DNA of 64,000 nt. Source: Methylocystis heyeri (lineage in GTDB: Bacteria; Pseudomonadota; Alphaproteobacteria; Rhizobiales; Beijerinckiaceae). Shown here piece by piece: positions 44,890 to 54,915 of the stretch. The position numbers were made by a program, and so were the translations under genes. The notes under the pieces are model-generated. The model did no database searches and had not been told where the DNA came from. It was given only the letters and a program-made list of their open reading frames with translations. Each line of letters opens with the position of its first letter. Positions within the stretch are counted from its first letter, which is position 1. The stretch is from positions 372,001-436,000 of the forward strand of contig NZ_CP046052.1 of NCBI RefSeq assembly GCF_004802635.2. The letters are read 5' to 3'.

Positions 44890-45165
44890 GTGACTGAGAA
44901 TCCAAAGGACAAGGCGAAACTGGTCGACGAGATTATCGAGGTCATCGCCGCCGAGGGCATGATCGATCGGTCGAAAGTCACCCCGGACGCTACGATCGAA
45001 AGCCTTGACCTGAAATCCGTGGACATCGTGATGATTCTCACGGCGCTGGAAGAAAAATTCAACGTCTACATCCCGATGGACGGGTCGCTTCAGGAAGCCA
45101 GGGACGTCAAAACCCTGATAGACGCCATCGCAGACCATATCGTTAAAGAAAGAGAGAAGAATTGA
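44890..45165 (+). CDS. Acyl carrier protein, pathway-specific
   Basis: A 91-residue acyl carrier protein. The GTG at 44890 has a GGAGG site 5 bases upstream. A longer reading from 44710 adds a basic, low-quality extension and is rejected. The phosphopantetheine serine is in the variant motif IESLDLKSVDIVMIL (S in LKSVD, where primary AcpP has DSLD). Helix II is acidic, and EEKFNVYIPMDGSLQEARDVKTLIDAI completes the fold. It is the first gene of a seven-gene run, so it should carry the chain built by the genes behind it and not serve general fatty acid synthesis. Confidence 0.85.
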   Translation: MTENPKDKAKLVDEIIEVIAAEGMIDRSKVTPDATIESLDLKSVDIVMILTALEEKFNVYIPMDGSLQEARDVKTLIDAIADHIVKEREKN

Positions 45166-45166
45166 T

Positions 45167-46456
45167 ATGACGGCTTCGCAAGCAGGCGAGAGCCCCGCGC
45201 CTGCGCAAGGCGCCTCGATCAATCGGTGCGATAATCAAAAGAGAATTGTCATCTCCGGCATGGGCGCGGTTTCGGCGGCGGGCATGGGCGCCGGGGCGCT
45301 CTGGCGGGCGGCGCGCGACGGTTTGACGCAGGTGCGGGAGCTCAGGACCGAGCGCCCCTACGACGGACGAATCCGGATCGCGGCGCAGGTGCCCCAATAC
45401 CAAGCTTCCGACCATATCGAATCGAGTCTGCTGCCTTTTTGCGATCCCTTCACGCAAAACGCCATCATAGCCGCGGACGAGGCGGTCGCGCAGGCCGGTT
45501 ACGGCCGGGACGATATCGGCGGCTCCCGCACCGCGGTGATCATCGGCAGCGGCATCGGCGGCATGACCACCATAGATAACGGCCTCTGCCGGTACTACGC
45601 CGAGGGCATTCGTCCCGATCCTTTGAGCGTTCCGCGTCTGATTCCGAGCGCCGCCCCCGCGACTCTCGGCATGCGTTACAGGTGCCTCGGGCCGACTTTC
45701 GCGATCGGCAGCGCCTGCTCCTCGGCCTCGCAGTCGATCGGCCTCGGCCTGCAGATGATCCGTGTCGGTCTCGCCGACAGGGCTCTGGTCGGCGGCTCCG
45801 AGTCCTGCGTCATCAACGGAACCATGCGGGCCTGGGAAGCGCTCCGCGTGATGACGCCCGATTTCTGCCGGCCCTTCTCCACGGGACGCAACGGCATGTC
45901 GCTCGGGGAAGGGGCCGCGGTCTTCGTTCTGGAGACCCTGGAATCCGCGCTGGCGCGCGGACATCGCCCGTTGTGCGAACTGGTGGGATACGGCACGACC
46001 AGCGACGCCAAGGATCCCGTGCGGCCGGACGTGGTCGGGGCCTCGAGCGCCATGGCTCTCGCGCTGGAAGACGCCGGCCTTTCTCCGCAGGACATCGATT
46101 ACATCAACGCCCACGGCACTGCGACGCACGCCAACGACATCACCGAATCGGAGGCGATCCTGCGCGTCTTCGGAGACGATTACGGCCGCAGGGTTCCGGT
46201 GTCCTCGACAAAACCCGTGCATGGCCATGCGCTGGGAGCGGGCGGTGGACTCGAGCTTACAATCACCATCAACGCCTTGCGGGAGCAGGTGGCTCCTCCG
46301 ACCATCAATTTCCTCGAAGCGGATCCGCGCTGCCCGATCGACGCCGTCCCGAATGTGGCGCGTCCCCTCAAGATCGACGTGGCCATGTCGAATTCCTTCG
46401 CTTTCGGCGGCATCAACGCCGTGCTGATCGTACGGGCGTTGGGCGATGGAGCGTGA
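45167..46456 (+). CDS. Beta-ketoacyl-ACP synthase (KAS II/FabF-like)
   Basis: A 429-residue ketosynthase that condenses an acyl group with malonyl-ACP. The C-H-H triad is complete: FAIGSACSSASQS (Cys), INAHGTATHANDITE (His) and STKPVHGHALGAGG (His). The N-terminal extension (about 25 residues) is rich in Ala, Gly and Pro and not conserved. It starts 2 bp after the ACP stop and its end overlaps the next gene by 11 bp. Confidence 0.9.
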   Translation: MTASQAGESPAPAQGASINRCDNQKRIVISGMGAVSAAGMGAGALWRAARDGLTQVRELRTERPYDGRIRIAAQVPQYQASDHIESSLLPFCDPFTQNAIIAADEAVAQAGYGRDDIGGSRTAVIIGSGIGGMTTIDNGLCRYYAEGIRPDPLSVPRLIPSAAPATLGMRYRCLGPTFAIGSACSSASQSIGLGLQMIRVGLADRALVGGSESCVINGTMRAWEALRVMTPDFCRPFSTGRNGMSLGEGAAVFVLETLESALARGHRPLCELVGYGTTSDAKDPVRPDVVGASSAMALALEDAGLSPQDIDYINAHGTATHANDITESEAILRVFGDDYGRRVPVSSTKPVHGHALGAGGGLELTITINALREQVAPPTINFLEADPRCPIDAVPNVARPLKIDVAMSNSFAFGGINAVLIVRALGDGA

Positions 46457-46841
46457 GTCGGCGACTGCTCTCGAACCTTTTCGGGTGCGCGTGGACAGGG
46501 CCCGCGCCGCCGAATTTGCGCGAGAGACGGACAACGCCGGAGAACTCGCCGCCATGCCGCTGGCCTATCCGGCGGTCTGGCTGAGCGAGCCTCGAGTGTA
46601 TGCGGCGATCGCCCGAGCCTGTGCGCAGGCCGAAAGCCTGCCGGTGCACGAATCGCAGAGTTTCGTTTATGATCGTCCGGTGCTGTTCGACGCCGATTAT
46701 GATCTCGTCGTCTCGATGGCGCGCGAACAATCGCCGCCGCGGTTGCGCATAAGAGCGGCGCTCGCGTCGCCCGACGGCGCTCCCGTCGGAAGTTTCGAGA
46801 CCTTGCTGCGTCTCGTGCCGCGCCGGGAAACGGCGTCGTGA
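46446..46841 (+). CDS. Hotdog-fold protein, non-catalytic MaoC-like half
   Basis: A 131-residue protein. The DNAGELAAMPLAYPAVWLSEP stretch and the ESQSFVYDRPVLFDADYDLVVSM-like strands resemble the N-terminal MaoC-type hotdog domain, but the catalytic Asp/His pair is missing. The next gene encodes a MaoC half with that pair, so the two probably form a heterodimeric dehydratase (as in HadAB-type pairs). It overlaps both neighbours (11 bp with the ketosynthase, 4 bp with the next gene). The assignment depends mainly on context. Confidence 0.6.
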   Translation: MERESATALEPFRVRVDRARAAEFARETDNAGELAAMPLAYPAVWLSEPRVYAAIARACAQAESLPVHESQSFVYDRPVLFDADYDLVVSMAREQSPPRLRIRAALASPDGAPVGSFETLLRLVPRRETAS

Positions 46842-47263
46842 CGGCGCGCGAGGCGACCGGCCTGCCCGAGATCGGAGAACGTCTTCCAGAGGTTGCGATC
46901 GGGCCGTTCGATGCGGAATCGCTGCTTCGCTACGCCAGGGTATCCGGCGACGACAATCCGATCCATCTCGATGACGCTCTCGCGGCGGCGATCGGGCTTT
47001 CGGCGCCTCCGGTGCAGGGAATGAAGCTGCTCGCCGCCTTCGAGCCGATGTTGCGGGCGTGGCGAAAGGATCTCTTTGTCGTGCGGCTCGGCGGGACCTT
47101 CGTGCAGCCCGCGCTGCGCGGTGAAAAAATAACCCTTTCCGGCCGCGTCGTGCGGTCGTCGCTGCAGGATGGCGTGCTGGTCCGGTTGCATGCCCATGGA
47201 GCGTCGCGCGCGCCGGCGGTCATCGCCGAAGCGACGCTGCGGCCAGCCGCCAACGGAATGTAG
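46838..47263 (+). CDS. MaoC-family (R)-hydratase / 3-hydroxyacyl dehydratase
   Basis: A 141-residue hotdog protein with the hydratase-2 motif YARVSGDDNPIHLDDALA: Asp and His in D-N-P-I-H are the catalytic pair. APPVQGMKLLAAF is the usual following helix. It should dehydrate 3-hydroxyacyl-ACP, or hydrate the enoyl form. The start is GTG at 46838, overlapping the previous stop (GTGA). Confidence 0.85.
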   Translation: MTAREATGLPEIGERLPEVAIGPFDAESLLRYARVSGDDNPIHLDDALAAAIGLSAPPVQGMKLLAAFEPMLRAWRKDLFVVRLGGTFVQPALRGEKITLSGRVVRSSLQDGVLVRLHAHGASRAPAVIAEATLRPAANGM

Positions 47264-47266
47264 AAA

Positions 47267-48058
47267 ATGAGCGGAAAACACATTCTCATAACCGGAGCGT
47301 CGAGCGGCATCGGCCGCGCATTGGCGCTCCGATACGCCGAGGAAGGCGCTCGGCTCAGCCTGCTGGGGCGGGACGCCAATCGTCTGGAAGCCGTCGCCGG
47401 CGAATGCCGGGAAAAAGGCGCCGCTGCGGACACCGCGATCGTCGACGTTCAGGACCGGTCCGGCATGTTCGCCGCGGTGGAAGCGGCGCTGGCCCGCGCG
47501 CCCATCGATATATTATTCGCCAATGCGGGCGTCGCGACGGGCCTCTCTCCGGGGCAGATTCTCGAGCCGACCGAATCCGTGCGGGCGATCCTGGCGATCA
47601 ATGTCGCGGGCGTGTTCAACACCGTGGAGCCGGCGATTCTGCCCATGACCAGGAGAGGCGCCGGGACCATCGCCATGGTCGGCTCCATGGCTGGGGTCCG
47701 GGGGCTGCCTTATTCCCCGGCCTATTGCGCGACCAAGGCGGCGGTTCACTCCTATGCCGAGTCGCTGCGCGGCGTCCTTGCGCCCCATGGCGTCGACGTC
47801 AGCCTCATCATCCCGGGCTTCGTGAAGACTCCGATGTCCGCCCGCACCAAATCCTGGCAGCCGGGCGCCATGAGCGACATGCAGGCCGCCGAGATCATCC
47901 TGCGCGGGTTGGAGCGCCGCAAGCCGGTCATCGCCTTTCCGCTTTTCATGTATGCCGCGTTGCGGTTCTTCACCTTTCTTCCGCCGCGACTCGTCGACTC
48001 GGTCATGGCGCGCTTCAGCGCGGATGTCCCGCAGACCACCGAGAGAGAAGCTGTATGA
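47267..48058 (+). CDS. SDR-family 3-oxoacyl reductase
   Basis: A 263-residue short-chain dehydrogenase that most likely reduces the 3-oxo group made by the ketosynthase. The cofactor motif is ITGASSGIGRALAL, then DILFANAG, the catalytic Ser in MVGSMAGVRG and YSPAYCATKAAVHSYAESL (YxxxK). The C-terminal end has a hydrophobic PVIAFPLFMYAALRFFTFLPPRLV segment, suggesting membrane attachment, unusual for FabG. The stop overlaps the glycosyltransferase start (ATGA). Confidence 0.88.
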   Translation: MSGKHILITGASSGIGRALALRYAEEGARLSLLGRDANRLEAVAGECREKGAAADTAIVDVQDRSGMFAAVEAALARAPIDILFANAGVATGLSPGQILEPTESVRAILAINVAGVFNTVEPAILPMTRRGAGTIAMVGSMAGVRGLPYSPAYCATKAAVHSYAESLRGVLAPHGVDVSLIIPGFVKTPMSARTKSWQPGAMSDMQAAEIILRGLERRKPVIAFPLFMYAALRFFTFLPPRLVDSVMARFSADVPQTTEREAV

Positions 48059-49251
48059 ACCTGGGCGAGGGCCTTTCGCTTTCCGAGGCTTTGACCTGGT
48101 TCGGCGCATTCCATTGGGTTGTCTCGGTCCTTCTGCTGGCGTTCTCCAGCATTGCGACCGTGATGCAGCCGTGGCTGACGGAACGACGCGCGAAAAACCG
48201 GTTACAACCGCCGGTGTCCGTGGTGCTTCCAGTGAAGCTGCTCGAAGATAGTTTCGAGACCGCCCAGGAATCGGTGCTCGCTCAGAGCTATCGCCAATTC
48301 GAGGCTCTGGCTTCCGCGGTCGACCCGCAGTCGGAAGCCTCGCAAAAGATGCGGAGAATATTCGAGCGCCACCCCGAGGTCGCCACGCGCTTTCTGGCCT
48401 CGACGGCCAATGGCGCGAAAAGCCCCAAGGTGAATAATCTCGTCGCGCCTTTCACGGAGGCGACGAACGACGTCATATTCATGAAGGACGCCAATGCGGT
48501 GCTGGCGCCGGGCGACCTGGCCGAGCACCTGCGGCAGCTGACCGATCAGGTCGGCCTCGTCTGTGCAATTCCTTACGGGGCGAATGCGGAGAACCTGGCG
48601 GCCCACATCGAGGCCTCGATCCTCAACGGCCCGCATCAGCGCATGCTTTATCTCGCCTCCGCTTTCGGTCATGGCTTCGGGGTCGGGAAAATCATGCTGT
48701 TTCGCCGAAGCGATTTCCTCAGAGCGGGAGGCTTCCACGCGATTTCGCATACCGTGGGCGAGGATAACGCCATGGCCAAAGCCCTGGCGCGAATCGGGCT
48801 CAAGACGGTTTTTTCGCACCGGGCGGTGCGGCAGGATCTGGGGCGGCGCTGCATGAAGGACGTCTACCAGCGCCAGCTTCGCTGGAGCGTGATCAGGCGC
48901 GGGGACGTGCTGCTGTCCTTTCTTCTGGAGCCGTTTTGCCAGGCTTTTCCGTCCCTTATAGCTGCAGCCCTGGCCGCGCCGCTGGTCGGCTTGACGCCGT
49001 TTTCAGCCGTGGCTGGGACCCTTTGTCTCTGGCTGGCCTCGGAGACATTGCTTTCCTTTGCGAAGGGTTGGCGCCTATCATGGGATGCGCCGGCTATTCT
49101 CCTTTTTCGAGAGGCGGTCATGCTCGCTGTGTGGCTGCAAGCCTGGATTACCAACCAGGTCGTTTGGGCTAATGAAAACTTCGACGCGCGCACGGACTCT
49201 CCTCGCGTCGTTTGCACCGAGGCGCCTTTGAAGCCGCCTGTGATGAAGTAG
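48055..49251 (+). CDS. Membrane glycosyltransferase, GT21-like (ceramide glucosyltransferase/HpnI type)
   Basis: A 398-residue inner-membrane glycosyltransferase. An N-terminal anchor (VVSVLLLAFSSIATV) is followed by the catalytic region PVSVVLPVKLLEDSFETAQESVLAQSYRQFEAL, the acidic NDVIFMKDANAVLAPGD, GEDNAMAKALARIGLKT and the membrane-proximal RQLRWSVIRRG, the (Q/R)xxRW motif of processive-type enzymes. Two to three hydrophobic segments close it. It resembles the sugar transferases that glycosylate ceramide or hopanoid lipids. Start ATG at 48055, overlapping the SDR stop. Confidence 0.82.
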   Translation: MNLGEGLSLSEALTWFGAFHWVVSVLLLAFSSIATVMQPWLTERRAKNRLQPPVSVVLPVKLLEDSFETAQESVLAQSYRQFEALASAVDPQSEASQKMRRIFERHPEVATRFLASTANGAKSPKVNNLVAPFTEATNDVIFMKDANAVLAPGDLAEHLRQLTDQVGLVCAIPYGANAENLAAHIEASILNGPHQRMLYLASAFGHGFGVGKIMLFRRSDFLRAGGFHAISHTVGEDNAMAKALARIGLKTVFSHRAVRQDLGRRCMKDVYQRQLRWSVIRRGDVLLSFLLEPFCQAFPSLIAAALAAPLVGLTPFSAVAGTLCLWLASETLLSFAKGWRLSWDAPAILLFREAVMLAVWLQAWITNQVVWANENFDARTDSPRVVCTEAPLKPPVMK

Positions 49252-49265
49252 AGAAGGATAAAGTC

Positions 49266-50573
49266 TTGGTTCTCGATCTCTTGCGCTTCGTCGTCGATGC
49301 GCTCGCCTTCGGCAGCGGGCTTACGCTCATAATCATTGGCCTCGGCTTCTTTGCGGTGATTGGGCGGTTTCTTTGGGACGAACTGCGCGGCGCCAAAGAT
49401 CCCGAGATCGTGGTTCTCCCCGATTCGGAATTGCCTCATGTGCTCGTTCAGATCCCCGTCTACAACGAGCCATTGGTCACCGAGCAGTCCCTGCGCTGCG
49501 TTGCGCAGCTCGATTGGCCGAAGGACAAGCTGCACATCCAGCTCCTCGACGACTCGACCGACGAAACCACCGCGCGGGCCGAGGCCGTCGCAAAGGAGCT
49601 GCGCGCAGCGGGAGCGGACATCGCTCATGTGCGGCGCCCCGACAGAGTAGGCTTCAAGGCGGGCGCCTGCGCCTATGGCCTCGGCATTTCCGATGCGCCA
49701 TTCATCGCTATGCTGGATGCGGATTTCAGGCCGCCGCCGAATTGGCTCAAGCGCGGCGTGCCTTTGCTCGTGAAGGACAAAAAGGCCGGTTTCGTCCAGT
49801 CGCGGTGCGAATTCTCGAATTTCCGGAAGAACTGGCTGACGCGGGCGCAAGGCCTGGTGCAGGACGGGCACTTCCTGGTCGAGCAGCGCAGCCGCGCCCA
49901 TGCGGGATGGCTTTTCCAGTTCAACGGCACCGGCGGCGTATGGCGCCGCGAGACGATCGAAAGCGCCGGCGGATGGTCGGATTTTTCGCTGTGCGAGGAT
50001 CTCGACCTCACCGTTCGCGCCGCTCTCGACGGCTGGCACGGGATCTTCGTTTCGGAGCCGGCGATTCCGGGACAAGTGCCGGAAGGACTGCGGGATTTTC
50101 GCCGTCAACAGAGACGCTGGTCCAGCGGCTTCGTCCAGGTGGCGCAAAAGACGGTAATCCCGCTTTGGCGTGCGCCCTGGACCCTGGTGCAGAGAGTCGC
50201 GGCGATTACGCTGGTCGCGCACCAGATTTTCTTCCCCGCCGCCGCCATTGGCGTTCTCGCCATGATCGTGGGGACGATTCTGCACCGGTCACCCGCAACC
50301 TATGCGCCGATGCTGGAGATCATTGCGGCGATGACCACGGTCGTCGTGCTGGGAATGACTCTCCCGCCCTATGTCGCGCTGAAGCGCGGCCCGCTGGCCG
50401 AATATCTGAAGACCATGGCGTCGGTGCCGCCTCTGATGATCTATCTCGCCTTTTCCAATGGCGCCAAAATCATCCAGACCATGCGCGGGCGCAAATCGCC
50501 GTTCAAACGCACGCCCAAGATCGAACATGCGATCAAGGCCGAAGCTCCGTGCGACGCCGACGCCGAGGCGTAA
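49266..50573 (+). CDS. Membrane glycosyltransferase, GT2/cellulose-synthase-like
   Basis: A 435-residue inner-membrane transferase. Motifs: HVLVQIPVYNEPLVTEQSL, QLLDDSTDE (first Asp), IAMLDADFRPPP (DxD-like), SLCEDLDLTVRAAL (ED), and FRRQQRRWSSGFVQV (QxxRW), followed by three C-terminal membrane segments. I chose TTG at 49266 because AGAAGGA precedes it by about 7 bases. An earlier in-frame TTG (49212) lies inside the previous gene. It probably adds a sugar to a lipid, after the GT21-like enzyme. Confidence 0.85.
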   Translation: MVLDLLRFVVDALAFGSGLTLIIIGLGFFAVIGRFLWDELRGAKDPEIVVLPDSELPHVLVQIPVYNEPLVTEQSLRCVAQLDWPKDKLHIQLLDDSTDETTARAEAVAKELRAAGADIAHVRRPDRVGFKAGACAYGLGISDAPFIAMLDADFRPPPNWLKRGVPLLVKDKKAGFVQSRCEFSNFRKNWLTRAQGLVQDGHFLVEQRSRAHAGWLFQFNGTGGVWRRETIESAGGWSDFSLCEDLDLTVRAALDGWHGIFVSEPAIPGQVPEGLRDFRRQQRRWSSGFVQVAQKTVIPLWRAPWTLVQRVAAITLVAHQIFFPAAAIGVLAMIVGTILHRSPATYAPMLEIIAAMTTVVVLGMTLPPYVALKRGPLAEYLKTMASVPPLMIYLAFSNGAKIIQTMRGRKSPFKRTPKIEHAIKAEAPCDADAEA

Positions 50574-50620
50574 CGCGACCAAAGTGGGGAAAGAAACAGG
50601 GCGATCGGGTGAAGGGCTAT

Positions 50621-50670
50621 TACCCTACCCCTTGAGGGGGAGGGTCGCCGCGAAGCGGCGGGGTGGGGCG
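50621..50670. repeat. REP-like GC-rich palindrome
   Basis: taccctacccc pairs imperfectly with gggggagggt, followed by a second hairpin, gtcgccgc with gcggcggg. Position and wording suit an interspersed repeat that may end cluster transcription. Confidence 0.55.
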
Positions 50671-50787
50671 GTTTTCCGCCCTATTTTGCGCCTTTACCCC
50701 CCCCCACGCGGTCAGCTTCGCCGACCGAACTCCCCGCCAAGGCTACCGCATGCACACATCTCGAAAAGTCGCCAGTCCCGTCATGAC

Positions 50788-50994
50788 CGGGCTTGTCCCG
50801 GCCATCCACGCCGAGCAGCAGCGAAATCTTCGGAATGTGCGTTCAATCCGCGGGATTTCGGGGTTTTCGCGCGCTGGCGTTTTCGCGTAACGTCAACGCC
50901 TGATGAGGAGCCAGACGATCGCTTCATCTGAGGAGCGACGCGCAATTCCGCGAGAAACCCCAATGTCCCGGCGTGGATGGCCGGGACAAGCCCG
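50788..50994. repeat. Element bounded by 25-bp perfect inverted repeats
   Basis: The arm cgggcttgtcccggccatcc plus five more bases at 50788-50812 recurs exactly in inverted form at 50970-50994, enclosing 157 bp of non-coding DNA. This MITE-like layout carries no transposase. Repeats with similar wording occur in many Hyphomicrobiales (recall). Confidence 0.75.
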
Positions 50995-51220
50995 GCCAGG
51001 ACGGCCTCCTGGAGATGTGTGACTCCCTTAGCCCGCAAAGGGGAAGGTATTCGCCCCACATCGAAAGGTTCGGTCCTTCTCTCGATTGCCCTGGGGAAAG
51101 AGGCTTTTCGCCTTCTCCCCCTATCGAGGGCCACGAGTTATCCGATCGATAGGAAACCGCTCCAGAGATAGGGTTGGAGCGGTTTGTTTTTGCAAAAGTG
51201 TTTTCGAGCGAAGTCCGTCT

Positions 51221-52012
51221 TCAGGCTGTCCGGCGCTTGCGCTCCGGGACGAGATCCCAGCGTGTCCCAAACAGGGTGTCGCAAATGTTCGAGGAGCCGA
51301 ACCCGTCGGAAAAACTGACATTGCCCCGCGCGTGATGAGCGGCATGGGCCTGGGAGCTTATGAGTTTCACCAGCATTGTGCGCAGGCGGTTCGCAGGTTC
51401 GGCGTCAAAACGCTGGCGCAAAACGCAACTGAAATCGTAACCGGAGTGCTCGTAAAGTCCGCCGAAGGCGCCGGCGCTGACCACCACGGCGTGGAACAGA
51501 AAATTGGAGCCGCCGACGCCCACCGCTGCAAGCGGTATCAGATAAGGGCAGACGATCTCGAGGAAGAAATCGGCGGCGCTCATATAGCAGGCGCTTATCC
51601 CCCGGCTTCCGACCGTGGAGTGATGCAGCGAGTGACCCAGCCGCCGCATCAAGTCGGGGCGATGCAGGATGAAACGATGGGCGACATATTGCACGATGTC
51701 GTGGCCGATCGTGAGGCCGGCGAAGCCCAGCAGCGCCGAGGCGAGCGCCACATGCTCCGAACCGACGAAAGCGAGCCCGCTCCACTGCGTCAGCAGCATG
51801 GCGGGCAGCAGCACGAAGACCTGGTTGGCCAGGACGCGCGGAAGCAATTTGGAGTATTTCATCCGTTCTGCGGGGCGCGTCTTGTAGCGAGACAATGAAC
51901 CGCTGCGGTCAAGCCATTCGAACCACAGACCAAAGCCGTGGTAGGCCAGCATTTGAACGATCCATATCCACAATGCGAGTGGAAAAAGTGGAAGCGCAGG
52001 TTCAGAAGGCAT
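51221..52012 (-). CDS. Membrane fatty acid hydroxylase / sterol desaturase family protein
   Basis: A 263-residue inner-membrane di-iron enzyme. The histidine boxes are in order: GHDIVQYVAHRFILH (HxxxH-like), LGHSLHHST (HxxHH) and AHAAHHARG (HxxHH-like), with several hydrophobic segments between. It should use O2 to hydroxylate or desaturate a lipid chain or ring. I chose the start at 52012 for its GGGAAG site. An earlier ATG at 52030 has none. It is convergent with the lipid cluster, so it may act on the same lipid, but that is inference from position. Confidence 0.85.
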   Translation of the reverse strand: MPSEPALPLFPLALWIWIVQMLAYHGFGLWFEWLDRSGSLSRYKTRPAERMKYSKLLPRVLANQVFVLLPAMLLTQWSGLAFVGSEHVALASALLGFAGLTIGHDIVQYVAHRFILHRPDLMRRLGHSLHHSTVGSRGISACYMSAADFFLEIVCPYLIPLAAVGVGGSNFLFHAVVVSAGAFGGLYEHSGYDFSCVLRQRFDAEPANRLRTMLVKLISSQAHAAHHARGNVSFSDGFGSSNICDTLFGTRWDLVPERKRRTA

Positions 52013-52262
52013 AAATAGACTTCCCGTCATTACGCGAAAATGAGATAGCTCCTGATTCCCCGAAATCCGGACGACCGAGGCTCTTGGCATAAATTCCCGT
52101 GAAGATGAAGCTTTTATTTCAGCGCAGGGGATAACTGCGGCGCGCTTATTGCACGAAAAACGGCGCTGAGAGTTTGTTGACGTTGTGGGCTGCATCTTCA
52201 ATACGTGTCACAGCCGGCTCCGCCGGCTGGCGTAATTGAGCAATCGGCGAGGAGCGAAGGTT

Positions 52263-53490: not shown

Positions 53491-54915
53491 TCAGAAATGG
53501 GTCGGGATGAAGGAGTTGTCGCCGAGGTCGAATTTATAGGTATAGCTCACCGAAAATTCGAGGCCGCTGAGCGAATCGGTGATGTTCGTGCCGGCGGCGT
53601 AATGCGGCGGCACGGCCACCGGAACCGATCCGAAAGGCGTGCTGTATGCGAAACGGGCGAAGGGCACGTTCTCAGGCCCGCTGACCGAATTCTTGAACGC
53701 ATAGACCGTCGCGAAGTCGATCGACGAATTCTTGGTCAGATCATATTTGAAGCCGCCCGCGATGTGATGTTCGCTGATCGCCGGCGCGAGGATATTGAGC
53801 GTGACGTCCTGCGATCCGATCATGGGGCTGGTGTGATTATAGCCCAGCCGCAAGGTCAGGTCTTTCGTCGCCCGCCACTCGACGCCGAAGGCTTCCGCGT
53901 CGGTGTCGCGCCAGCCGAATCCGAGCCCGCCGTAGGTTCCGAGCGTGCCGTAAAAAATCGGGAAAGTCGGATTCCCGAGGGCGGGAACCGCCGAATAGAA
54001 GATGTGCTTCCAATCCACCATCACCGTGACATTGGGGAGAATGTCATAGGCGAGGCCGACGCTGACCTCGGCGGGGATGTCCATTTTACCGTGATTGGCG
54101 ATGGCGCCCGCATATTTGCCGAACTGGGTCATGAACATCGGCGTCGAGCCCGCCACGCCGAGACGCAGCTCCTTGGTGATTTCGTATTGGAGGCCTAGGC
54201 GTATGCCGCCGCCGACCGAATAGTCGTATCCATTGTCCGACAGGTGGTAGGGATCCCAGGAATAGGGGGCGAGCGTCTTGAGGCCCTGAACGTTCAACGC
54301 CTGGCCGGCCAGGGTCGGGGCGAAGCCGATGGTCACGGGACCGAATTTGCGGGCGTAGACCACGCTGAAAAACTGCTGCTGGAGGTCGATGCCGGCGAAA
54401 CCTCCGCCGAGCGGACCGCCCAGGGAGGGGCTGACGAGCGGACCGGCGAGCTTGAAGGGGCCCACCGAGAGCGACGGCGCGTAAATCGGGGGCTTGTAAT
54501 GCCCCCAGTCATAAGCGGTGTTGATGCCGCCATTGCCGTAGGAGACCGTGCCCCAGGCGGATTCGGCGTCGATCGGCTGGACATTGGCGTTGTTGGGAAC
54601 AGGGAAGATCGGACGTCCGCTTCTGACATCCCCCGGCGCGACCACGGAGAGCGGACCGCTGGCCTGATAGCCGCGATCGGGCAGAAGGGCGCTGATGCCG
54701 AACTGATATTGGCGTTCCATGCCGACGATGCCGGCGGGATTCACGGCCATCGACATGGCGTCTTTGGAATCGGCGACGTCGGAGCCGGCCAGGGCCTTCT
54801 GCCGCGCGCCATAGCCGATGAGCTCTATTCCCTCCGCCGCAAGGCCGGCTTCGGCCGGTAAAATGCAAGCCACCGACAGCGAAACCACGAGCGCGCGCCG
54901 AAAATCCTGACTCAT
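53491..54915 (-). CDS. OMPP1/FadL/TodX-family outer-membrane transporter
   Basis: A 474-residue outer-membrane barrel. A signal peptide (FRRALVVSLSVACILPAEAG, cleavage near GLAAEG) is followed by the FadL-type hatch region, GARQKALAGSDVADSKDAMSMAVNPAGIVG, where NPAGI is the family hallmark. Fourteen or so strands follow and the chain ends in Phe (SFIPTHF), the usual barrel end. Members import long-chain fatty acids or hydrophobic aromatics. The substrate cannot be read here. Confidence 0.88.
   Translation of the reverse strand: MSQDFRRALVVSLSVACILPAEAGLAAEGIELIGYGARQKALAGSDVADSKDAMSMAVNPAGIVGMERQYQFGISALLPDRGYQASGPLSVVAPGDVRSGRPIFPVPNNANVQPIDAESAWGTVSYGNGGINTAYDWGHYKPPIYAPSLSVGPFKLAGPLVSPSLGGPLGGGFAGIDLQQQFFSVVYARKFGPVTIGFAPTLAGQALNVQGLKTLAPYSWDPYHLSDNGYDYSVGGGIRLGLQYEITKELRLGVAGSTPMFMTQFGKYAGAIANHGKMDIPAEVSVGLAYDILPNVTVMVDWKHIFYSAVPALGNPTFPIFYGTLGTYGGLGFGWRDTDAEAFGVEWRATKDLTLRLGYNHTSPMIGSQDVTLNILAPAISEHHIAGGFKYDLTKNSSIDFATVYAFKNSVSGPENVPFARFAYSTPFGSVPVAVPPHYAAGTNITDSLSGLEFSVSYTYKFDLGDNSFIPTHF

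Follow-up and report, generated by a model that had tools for sequence, protein, structure and literature searches.

A seven-gene operon of Methylocystis heyeri with a probable role in acyl supply, keto-reduction and glycosylation within a bacterial glycosphingolipid pathway

Comparison with described systems

Sphingolipids, membrane lipids of the ceramide type, are well known in plants and animals. In Caulobacter crescentus and Escherichia coli BL21, according to the available text of two reports, a ceramide pathway is encoded by spt-acpR-cerR-aasR-bcerS (PMC9386255, PMC11087976). Here we describe a seven-gene operon of Methylocystis heyeri, located in a 64,000-nucleotide stretch of contig NZ_CP046052.1 (hereafter the window), which probably provides for acyl supply, keto-reduction and glycosylation and so makes up one half of a bacterial pathway to glycosphingolipids. 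The remaining half would lie at G000:C1:1346419-1350673 of the same genome, in an operon for a serine palmitoyltransferase (SPT)-like enzyme, a GNAT protein, a desaturase and a hydroxylase. With its genes divided between two loci in this genome, such a pathway would represent a novel form of bacterial sphingolipid synthesis. The evidence consists of gene content, homology, synteny and co-occurrence, from which we infer the reactions, the order of steps, the chain length and the identity of the sugars. In our codes, G denotes a genome, L a locus, g a genus and f a family, and G000 is the window's own genome (4.73 Mb).

The M. heyeri system shares with the C. crescentus and BL21 pathway an SPT-like enzyme, a putatively dedicated acyl carrier protein (ACP) and a predicted YghO/bCerS-type N-acyltransferase. 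However, it contains a beta-ketoacyl-ACP synthase (KAS), a HadAB-type dehydratase made of two hotdog-fold proteins (hotdog A and B) and a short-chain dehydrogenase/reductase (SDR), with neither AasR nor a close CerR at its loci, and it adds a predicted Delta4-desaturase and a hydroxylase. GT21 and GT2 glycosyltransferases would take the place of Sgt1 and Sgt2, which came from among GT4 candidates in the available part of their description (PMC6445935). No AasR lay within the retrieved pathway loci of 11 searched genomes, the nearest being ~22 kb from the block (G022). Near-full-length AasR-like matches (33-37%) were present in seven of the 11, in frames of 958-3377 aa and in one of 626 aa (G049), and only partial matches were found in G047, G056, G153 and G074. 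In all six genomes searched for CerR there was no close match, only similarities of 26-34% (best E 3.4e-21), none of them at pathway loci.

The ACP-KAS gene pair resembles rhizobial NodF-NodE, with a KAS 42-44% identical. In contrast to the rhizobial system, the seven genes include no nodA, nodB or nodC, a hotdog pair, an SDR and a GT21 are extra, and the ACPs are barely similar (22-30% where aligned). The non-identical hotdog pair, with its HadB-like catalytic subunit, is comparable to mycobacterial HadAB/HadBC, but hotdog A is weakly HadA-like and the gene setting differs. The GT21 domain and the R-Q-x-R-W motif are shared with ceramide glucosyltransferase and HpnI, whereas the operon enzyme forms its own clade.

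Gene content and conservation of the operon

A dedicated acyl-chain and glycosylation operon had been proposed by a sequence-only reading of the window, and the operon at 44890-50573 (forward strand) is real, its seven genes lying where they had been placed and belonging to the expected families (Table 1). The first six genes overlap by 4-11 bp or are spaced by 1-3 bp. The junction between GT21 and GT2 depends on the start of GT2, which is uncertain, about 49263 being likely as judged from relatives. Across the loci measured, the SDR/GT21 overlap is 4 bp in 22 of 22 and the gap between hotdog B and the SDR ranges from -4 to 280 bp. The block holds a single KAS.

The gene order ACP-KAS-hotdog A-hotdog B-SDR-GT21-GT2 was complete in 10 of the 11 named loci (L045 is truncated by a contig end) and in 22 of the 23 longer loci from 24 genus relatives, the exception, G023, having another KAS only. 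It should be noted that the named and code-only loci are partly identical records and that the first copy in G017 is not among the longer loci. Among 31 further family loci picked by a GT21 match, 12 had the full order and 19 had GT21 without the block; both loci retrieved from f50 had the full order plus one extra GT2-type gene. The order is thus conserved in relatives of Methylocystis and Methylosinus, in two more genera of the family and in one genus of another family, and the claim of a conserved unit stands.

Across 397 genomes of the order, an ACP match (E<=1e-12) was found in 37, of which 34 lie outside the family; the following counts rest on 20 of these 34 loci. KAS followed ACP in all 20, hotdog B was near in 19 and hotdog A in 16, and the whole seven-gene set was found in two. 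A GNAT gene was within reach in 11 and an SPT-like gene in seven. Methanotrophy was dropped as an explanation of the block, which occurs, complete or in a shorter form, also in g24, g33, g37, g26 and g51; pmoA-type matches (PF02461) were found in three of 43 genera (g1, g58, g56). As a separate observation, L211, L219 and L222 carry ACP-KAS-hotdog cassettes near genes for inositol-phosphate synthase, CDP-alcohol transferase or PlsC-type/acyltransferase proteins, with no SPT or GNAT gene in reach; from this setting, a phosphosphingolipid product could be conceived.

The partner operon and its link to the block

The sequence-only reading had noted that no SPT or acyltransferase gene was present. 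This holds near the operon in this genome; genome-wide, an SPT-like gene and a gene for a predicted ceramide-synthase-type N-acyltransferase do exist, and in several relatives they stand beside the block. Over 381 aa, the GNAT protein shares 38.6% identity with BL21 YghO (E 1e-85). In the text available to us, YghO is the N-acyltransferase proposed for dihydroceramide/ceramide in E. coli BL21 (PMC9386255); by this similarity the GNAT protein is a predicted YghO/bCerS-type N-acyltransferase. The desaturase passes the Pfam Lipid_DES profile (34.4 bits, cut-off 23) and also FA_desaturase, as do all four relatives' desaturases scanned, and no solved relative was found at E<=0.01. Its profile matches make it a relative of eukaryotic sphingolipid desaturases and a predicted Delta4-desaturase. 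The hydroxylase is an orthologue of the hydroxylase found beside GT21 outside the block: in six of six profiled loci (L149, L152, L153, L159, L160, L161, from the 19 with GT21 but no block), its gene was adjacent to GT21 or 1-2 kb away. On the NCBIfam SPT model NF047599, the SPT-like enzyme reaches 300 bits, against 213 bits for the genome's own BioF-like paralogue (L252), and its matches to solved SPT (1.7e-64) and Kbl (2.4e-65) are nearly alike. For the SPT identity, context weighs more than sequence.

Table 1 Genes of the seven-gene operon, the partner operon and the neighbourhood; window positions unless a locus is given
Feature	Position	Strand	Family or evidence	Place
ACP, dedicated carrier protein with a proposed AcpR/NodF-like role	44890-45165	+	PF00550	seven-gene operon
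KAS, beta-ketoacyl-ACP synthase of NodE-related clade	45167-46456	+	ketoacyl-synt N and C domains, tree	seven-gene operon
Hotdog A, HadA-like partner subunit (weak by sequence)	46446-46841	+	FAS1_DH_region in alignment members, HadA, model	seven-gene operon
Hotdog B, catalytic subunit of a HadB/PhaJ-like (3R)-hydroxyacyl dehydratase	46838-47263	+	MaoC	seven-gene operon
SDR, 3-ketosphinganine/3-ketoceramide reductase (preferred) or 3-ketoacyl-ACP reductase	47267-48058	+	adh_short	seven-gene operon
GT21, proposed first (ceramide) glycosyltransferase	48055-49251	+	Glyco_transf_21	seven-gene operon
GT2, membrane glycosyltransferase resembling cellulose synthase, proposed for the second glycosylation	49212-50573	+	Glyco_trans_2_3	seven-gene operon
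SPT-like enzyme of the alpha-oxoamine synthase (AOS) family	L225 4420-5658			partner operon
GNAT protein, predicted YghO/bCerS-type N-acyltransferase	L225 5842-6981			partner operon
Predicted sphingolipid Delta4-desaturase	L225 7015-8007			partner operon
Fatty-acid hydroxylase	L225 7955-8674			partner operon
Facing hydroxylase	51221-52201	-	PF04116	neighbour
FadL/TodX-family outer-membrane transporter	53491-54915	-		neighbour

All eleven genes occur together in L048/L144, L157 and L166, L048 and L144 being apparently the same contig (JACOUB010000005.1) of a Methylocystis sp. metagenome-assembled genome. In L235, L239 and L240, the block without GT21 faces the SPT, GNAT and desaturase genes, and in L236 a block lacking both GT21 and the SDR does so. 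Close orthologues were defined by thresholds set after viewing gaps in the score lists (GT21, bits>250; GNAT, E<1e-100; ACP, E<1e-30). In 298 genomes of the family, GT21 and GNAT were both present in 70, GT21 only in one, GNAT only in four and neither in 223. ACP, found in 86 of these genomes, occurred with GNAT in 73 and alone in 13, GNAT occurring without it in one and neither gene in 211. Some of the genomes with a single orthologue (G139, G188, G237, G245) are incomplete, with completeness of 73-86%, and a partial GNAT gene (133 aa) in G286 was scored as absent. Since the co-occurrence is confined to nine of 43 genera, the counts are not independent, and the varying gene arrangement between genera is a stronger argument for the link. 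ACP and GNAT lie on one contig in 46 genomes, less than 10 kb apart in 17 and 38-84 kb apart in 14, the distance in G213 being measured to a GNAT fragment.

Acyl carrier protein, ketosynthase and the acyl module

The ACP matches PF00550 (PP-binding; 25.5 bits, cut-off 20.8), and Ser43 of its LKS motif is invariant in all 23 aligned sequences. Its identity to BL21 AcpR is 33%, with only 48 aa aligned, and it accompanies GNAT in 73 of the 74 GNAT genomes. The two further short free-standing carrier frames of the genome (92 and 115 aa) do not lie at the SPT operon, which leaves the block ACP as the leading candidate for the carrier that serves SPT. Elsewhere in the genome, a large peptide synthetase is probably encoded at G000:C1:3019462-3057250, where very long frames of 9008, 2893 and 1160 aa contain numerous carrier domains, and a 969-aa frame at G000:C1:3751647-3753548, with similar frames in several relatives, has carrier and fatty-acyl-AMP-ligase-like domains.

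Judged from profile and tree, the KAS is not the housekeeping FabF and belongs to a clade of its own beside NodE. With the gene order also conserved, this speaks against the refuting outcome that the sequence-only reading had named, a KAS clustering with housekeeping FabF and an unconserved order. It reaches 370 bits on NCBIfam fabF, below the cut-off of 493.75. In a quick tree of 50 rows, including E. coli FabF and the genome's own FabF, it stood apart from both, in a group (98% support in the Shimodaira-Hasegawa-like approximate likelihood ratio test, SH-aLRT) that also took in the rows of the block, the second copies described below and, with the exception of L245, the cassette rows (12 of 13). 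The four NodE-type rows formed another clade, the NodE rows grouping with a Xanthomonas sacchari plasmid KAS (89%). That plasmid KAS (48%) is the sole named relative nearer than NodE (41.8-43.6% identity). Cys184, His316, Lys349 and His354 are invariant in 23 of 23 sequences. A second, stand-alone KAS, 66-70% identical to the block KAS, was present in 23 of the 24 genus relatives, G007 being the exception, for example at L053, L059, L065, L066 and L087; the window's genome has no match at this level. In L053 and L056, its neighbours resemble galU and murA by eye.

Hotdog A of the window had no family match in the profile scan. Eight of the 23 members of its alignment matched FAS1_DH_region (best E 0.00025), its best solved relative is HadA, weakly (E 0.096), and its predicted model (predicted local distance difference test score 84) shows a helix with long strands. 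Hotdog B matches MaoC (39.9 bits), with profile matches to MaoC 4rv2, PhaJ-type 1iq6 and HadB, and its Asp38, Asn40 and His43 are invariant in the alignment. The SDR matches adh_short and reaches 190 bits on PRK07024, below the cut-off of 266; its best solved relative is HSD17B13. Because no close CerR was found and the partner operon of this genome holds no reductase, the SDR is the candidate keto-reductase.

Glycosyltransferases

The assignment of GT21 to the ceramide/hopanoid class holds (Glyco_transf_21, 150 bits). Its best NCBIfam match is HpnI at 142 bits, far below the cut-off of 310, and in the tree it is separate from the HpnI-like paralogues. Any GT21 match (E<=1e-20) was found in 177 of the 298 family genomes, and a close orthologue in 71. 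The match to solved ceramide glucosyltransferase (E 1.1e-27) is not specific, and we withdrew it as proof of function since an HpnI-like paralogue scores better. This second GT21 of the genome lies at G000:C1:664936-666021 and itself stays below the HpnI cut-off (185 bits). In the GT2, the residues DD, DxD, ED and QQRRW are invariant in 22 of 22 sequences (alignment A5, which excludes L158), and similarity to NodC is weak (26%).

Proposed pathway and alternatives

The presumed role of NodE is to condense an acyl chain with malonyl on NodF, and this pair provides the model for transferring a chain through a condensation step. In a NodE/NodF-like manner, the KAS would condense an acyl chain from housekeeping fatty acid synthesis with malonyl on the dedicated ACP, so that the chain would reach this carrier through elongation and no ligase. 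The cycle would be completed by a ketoacyl reductase, the hotdog A/B pair and the housekeeping enoyl reductase, SPT would couple the acyl-ACP with serine and the SDR would then reduce the 3-keto group. The N-acyltransferase would attach the second chain, the desaturase and hydroxylase would modify the ceramide, and GT21 and then GT2 would add the first and the next sugar. It is conceivable, at somewhat below even chances, that NodE-like/HadAB elongation onto a sphingolipid ACP replaces the acyl-ACP ligase as a second way to feed SPT, within a eukaryote-like pathway to ceramides predicted to be Delta4-desaturated, hydroxylated and glycosylated.

Several observations weigh against a glycosphingolipid pathway formed by the two operons. 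The SPT-like enzyme is below the cut-off of its SPT model (500) and scores higher on bioF (346 bits, cut-off 426), and the tree does not settle its kinship with BL21 SPT. A distance of more than 140 kb separates the two halves in 15 of the 46 same-contig genomes, among them the window's genome with 931 kb. Fisher p values for the co-occurrence ignore shared ancestry, and some GNAT match (E<=1e-20) exists in 96 of the 298 genomes, 22 of them below the orthologue threshold and uncounted. G208, 99% complete, has ACP and GNAT with no GT21 match, and 11 of the 13 ACP-only genomes are g49 genomes without a close GT21 or GNAT orthologue. Outside the family, nine of the 20 loci have neither SPT nor GNAT, some of them on short contigs. 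Furthermore, the HpnI-like paralogue is closer to solved ceramide glucosyltransferase (3.4e-41) than the operon GT21; since it is also below the HpnI cut-off, it could be the ceramide-glycosylating enzyme instead.

Rather than feeding SPT, the acyl module may supply the amide-bound chain of the ceramide (the N-linked fatty acid) or a particular 3-hydroxy or 2-enoyl chain, with the SDR as its ketoacyl reductase. We regard this as rather unlikely. In its favour, the SDR gene directly follows the hotdog genes, its product shares 29.7% identity with E. coli FabG, and GNAT stands immediately upstream of ACP in L206, L215, L217 and L244. However, L245 has an SDR with KAS and GNAT and no hotdog matches, and L236 has hotdogs without an SDR, so the two are not mutually tied; moreover, SPTs of three tested Proteobacteria prefer acyl-AcpR, as stated in the available text of PMC9386255. 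A glycolipid outside the sphingolipids, in which the chain built by ACP, KAS and HadAB would end up attached to diacylglycerol or a glycan, giving a Nod-factor-like or polyene glycolipid, with a coincidental link to the SPT operon, appears improbable. NodE does rank among the named sequences closest to the KAS, the GT2 is slightly NodC-like and the block itself has no acyltransferase, but no NodA- or NodB-like gene is found among the seven, and SPT, GNAT and desaturase genes adjoin the block in several genera in differing arrangements, with near-complete co-occurrence.

There is an equally small chance that GT21 acts on hopanoids, like HpnI, and that the acyl part alone is sphingolipid-related. 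The paralogue comparison lends weight to this view by counting against a simple reading of GT21, as does HpnI being the top NCBIfam match. Against it stand the low HpnI score, the separate clade, the frequency of weaker HpnI-like GT21 matches in genomes without a close orthologue, and the occurrence of GT21 with GNAT and the partner hydroxylase. Conjugated polyenes may be considered as a product, with no support from any finding here. The PlcP-Agt glycolipids of Methylosinus were rejected because they depend on different genes; in the available text on them, Agt is placed with GT4 and the monogalactosyldiacylglycerol (MGDG) glycosyltransferase is left unidentified (PMC9239053). We also considered a module for a particular fatty acid. 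The signature fatty acid of the genera Methylocystis and Methylosinus is 18:1 omega-8, and this reading was dropped because the ACP is a dedicated one, because the block is linked with SPT and because other genera carry it too. The glycosphingolipid pathway thus remains the preferred reading; of the undescribed glycolipid or lipid-linked product first suggested for the operon, the glycolipid type is retained, and the partner operon narrows it to a probable glycosphingolipid.

Neighbouring genes

The membrane hydroxylase gene facing the operon is real, and it had been counted as a cluster member. We do not keep it as such: among the compared loci it is carried only by L039 (facing) and L084 (~3 kb farther off), which marks it as a local neighbour. 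Its product (P0008) is of a subfamily distinct from the pathway hydroxylase, against whose profile it scores 17 bits; the hydroxylase assigned to the pathway is a different one, in the partner operon. A mutase-like gene upstream of the operon is syntenic in many loci, with no functional link evident. Downstream lies a gene for a FadL/TodX-family transporter (Table 1).

Implications for methanotrophs

No report of a glycosphingolipid pathway in type II methanotrophs was found in the titles and abstract openings of open-access literature. The pathway proposed here suggests a route of acyl supply in place of AasR that is open to testing, and it names GT21 enzymes as candidates for glycosylating ceramides in bacteria. 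Internal membranes are a feature of methanotrophs such as Methylocystis and Methylosinus. If our reading is true, these and similar methanotrophs would carry a largely complete glycosphingolipid pathway, which would bear on their internal membranes, on the lipid biomarkers of methane oxidation and on the history of eukaryote-like sphingolipid modifications.

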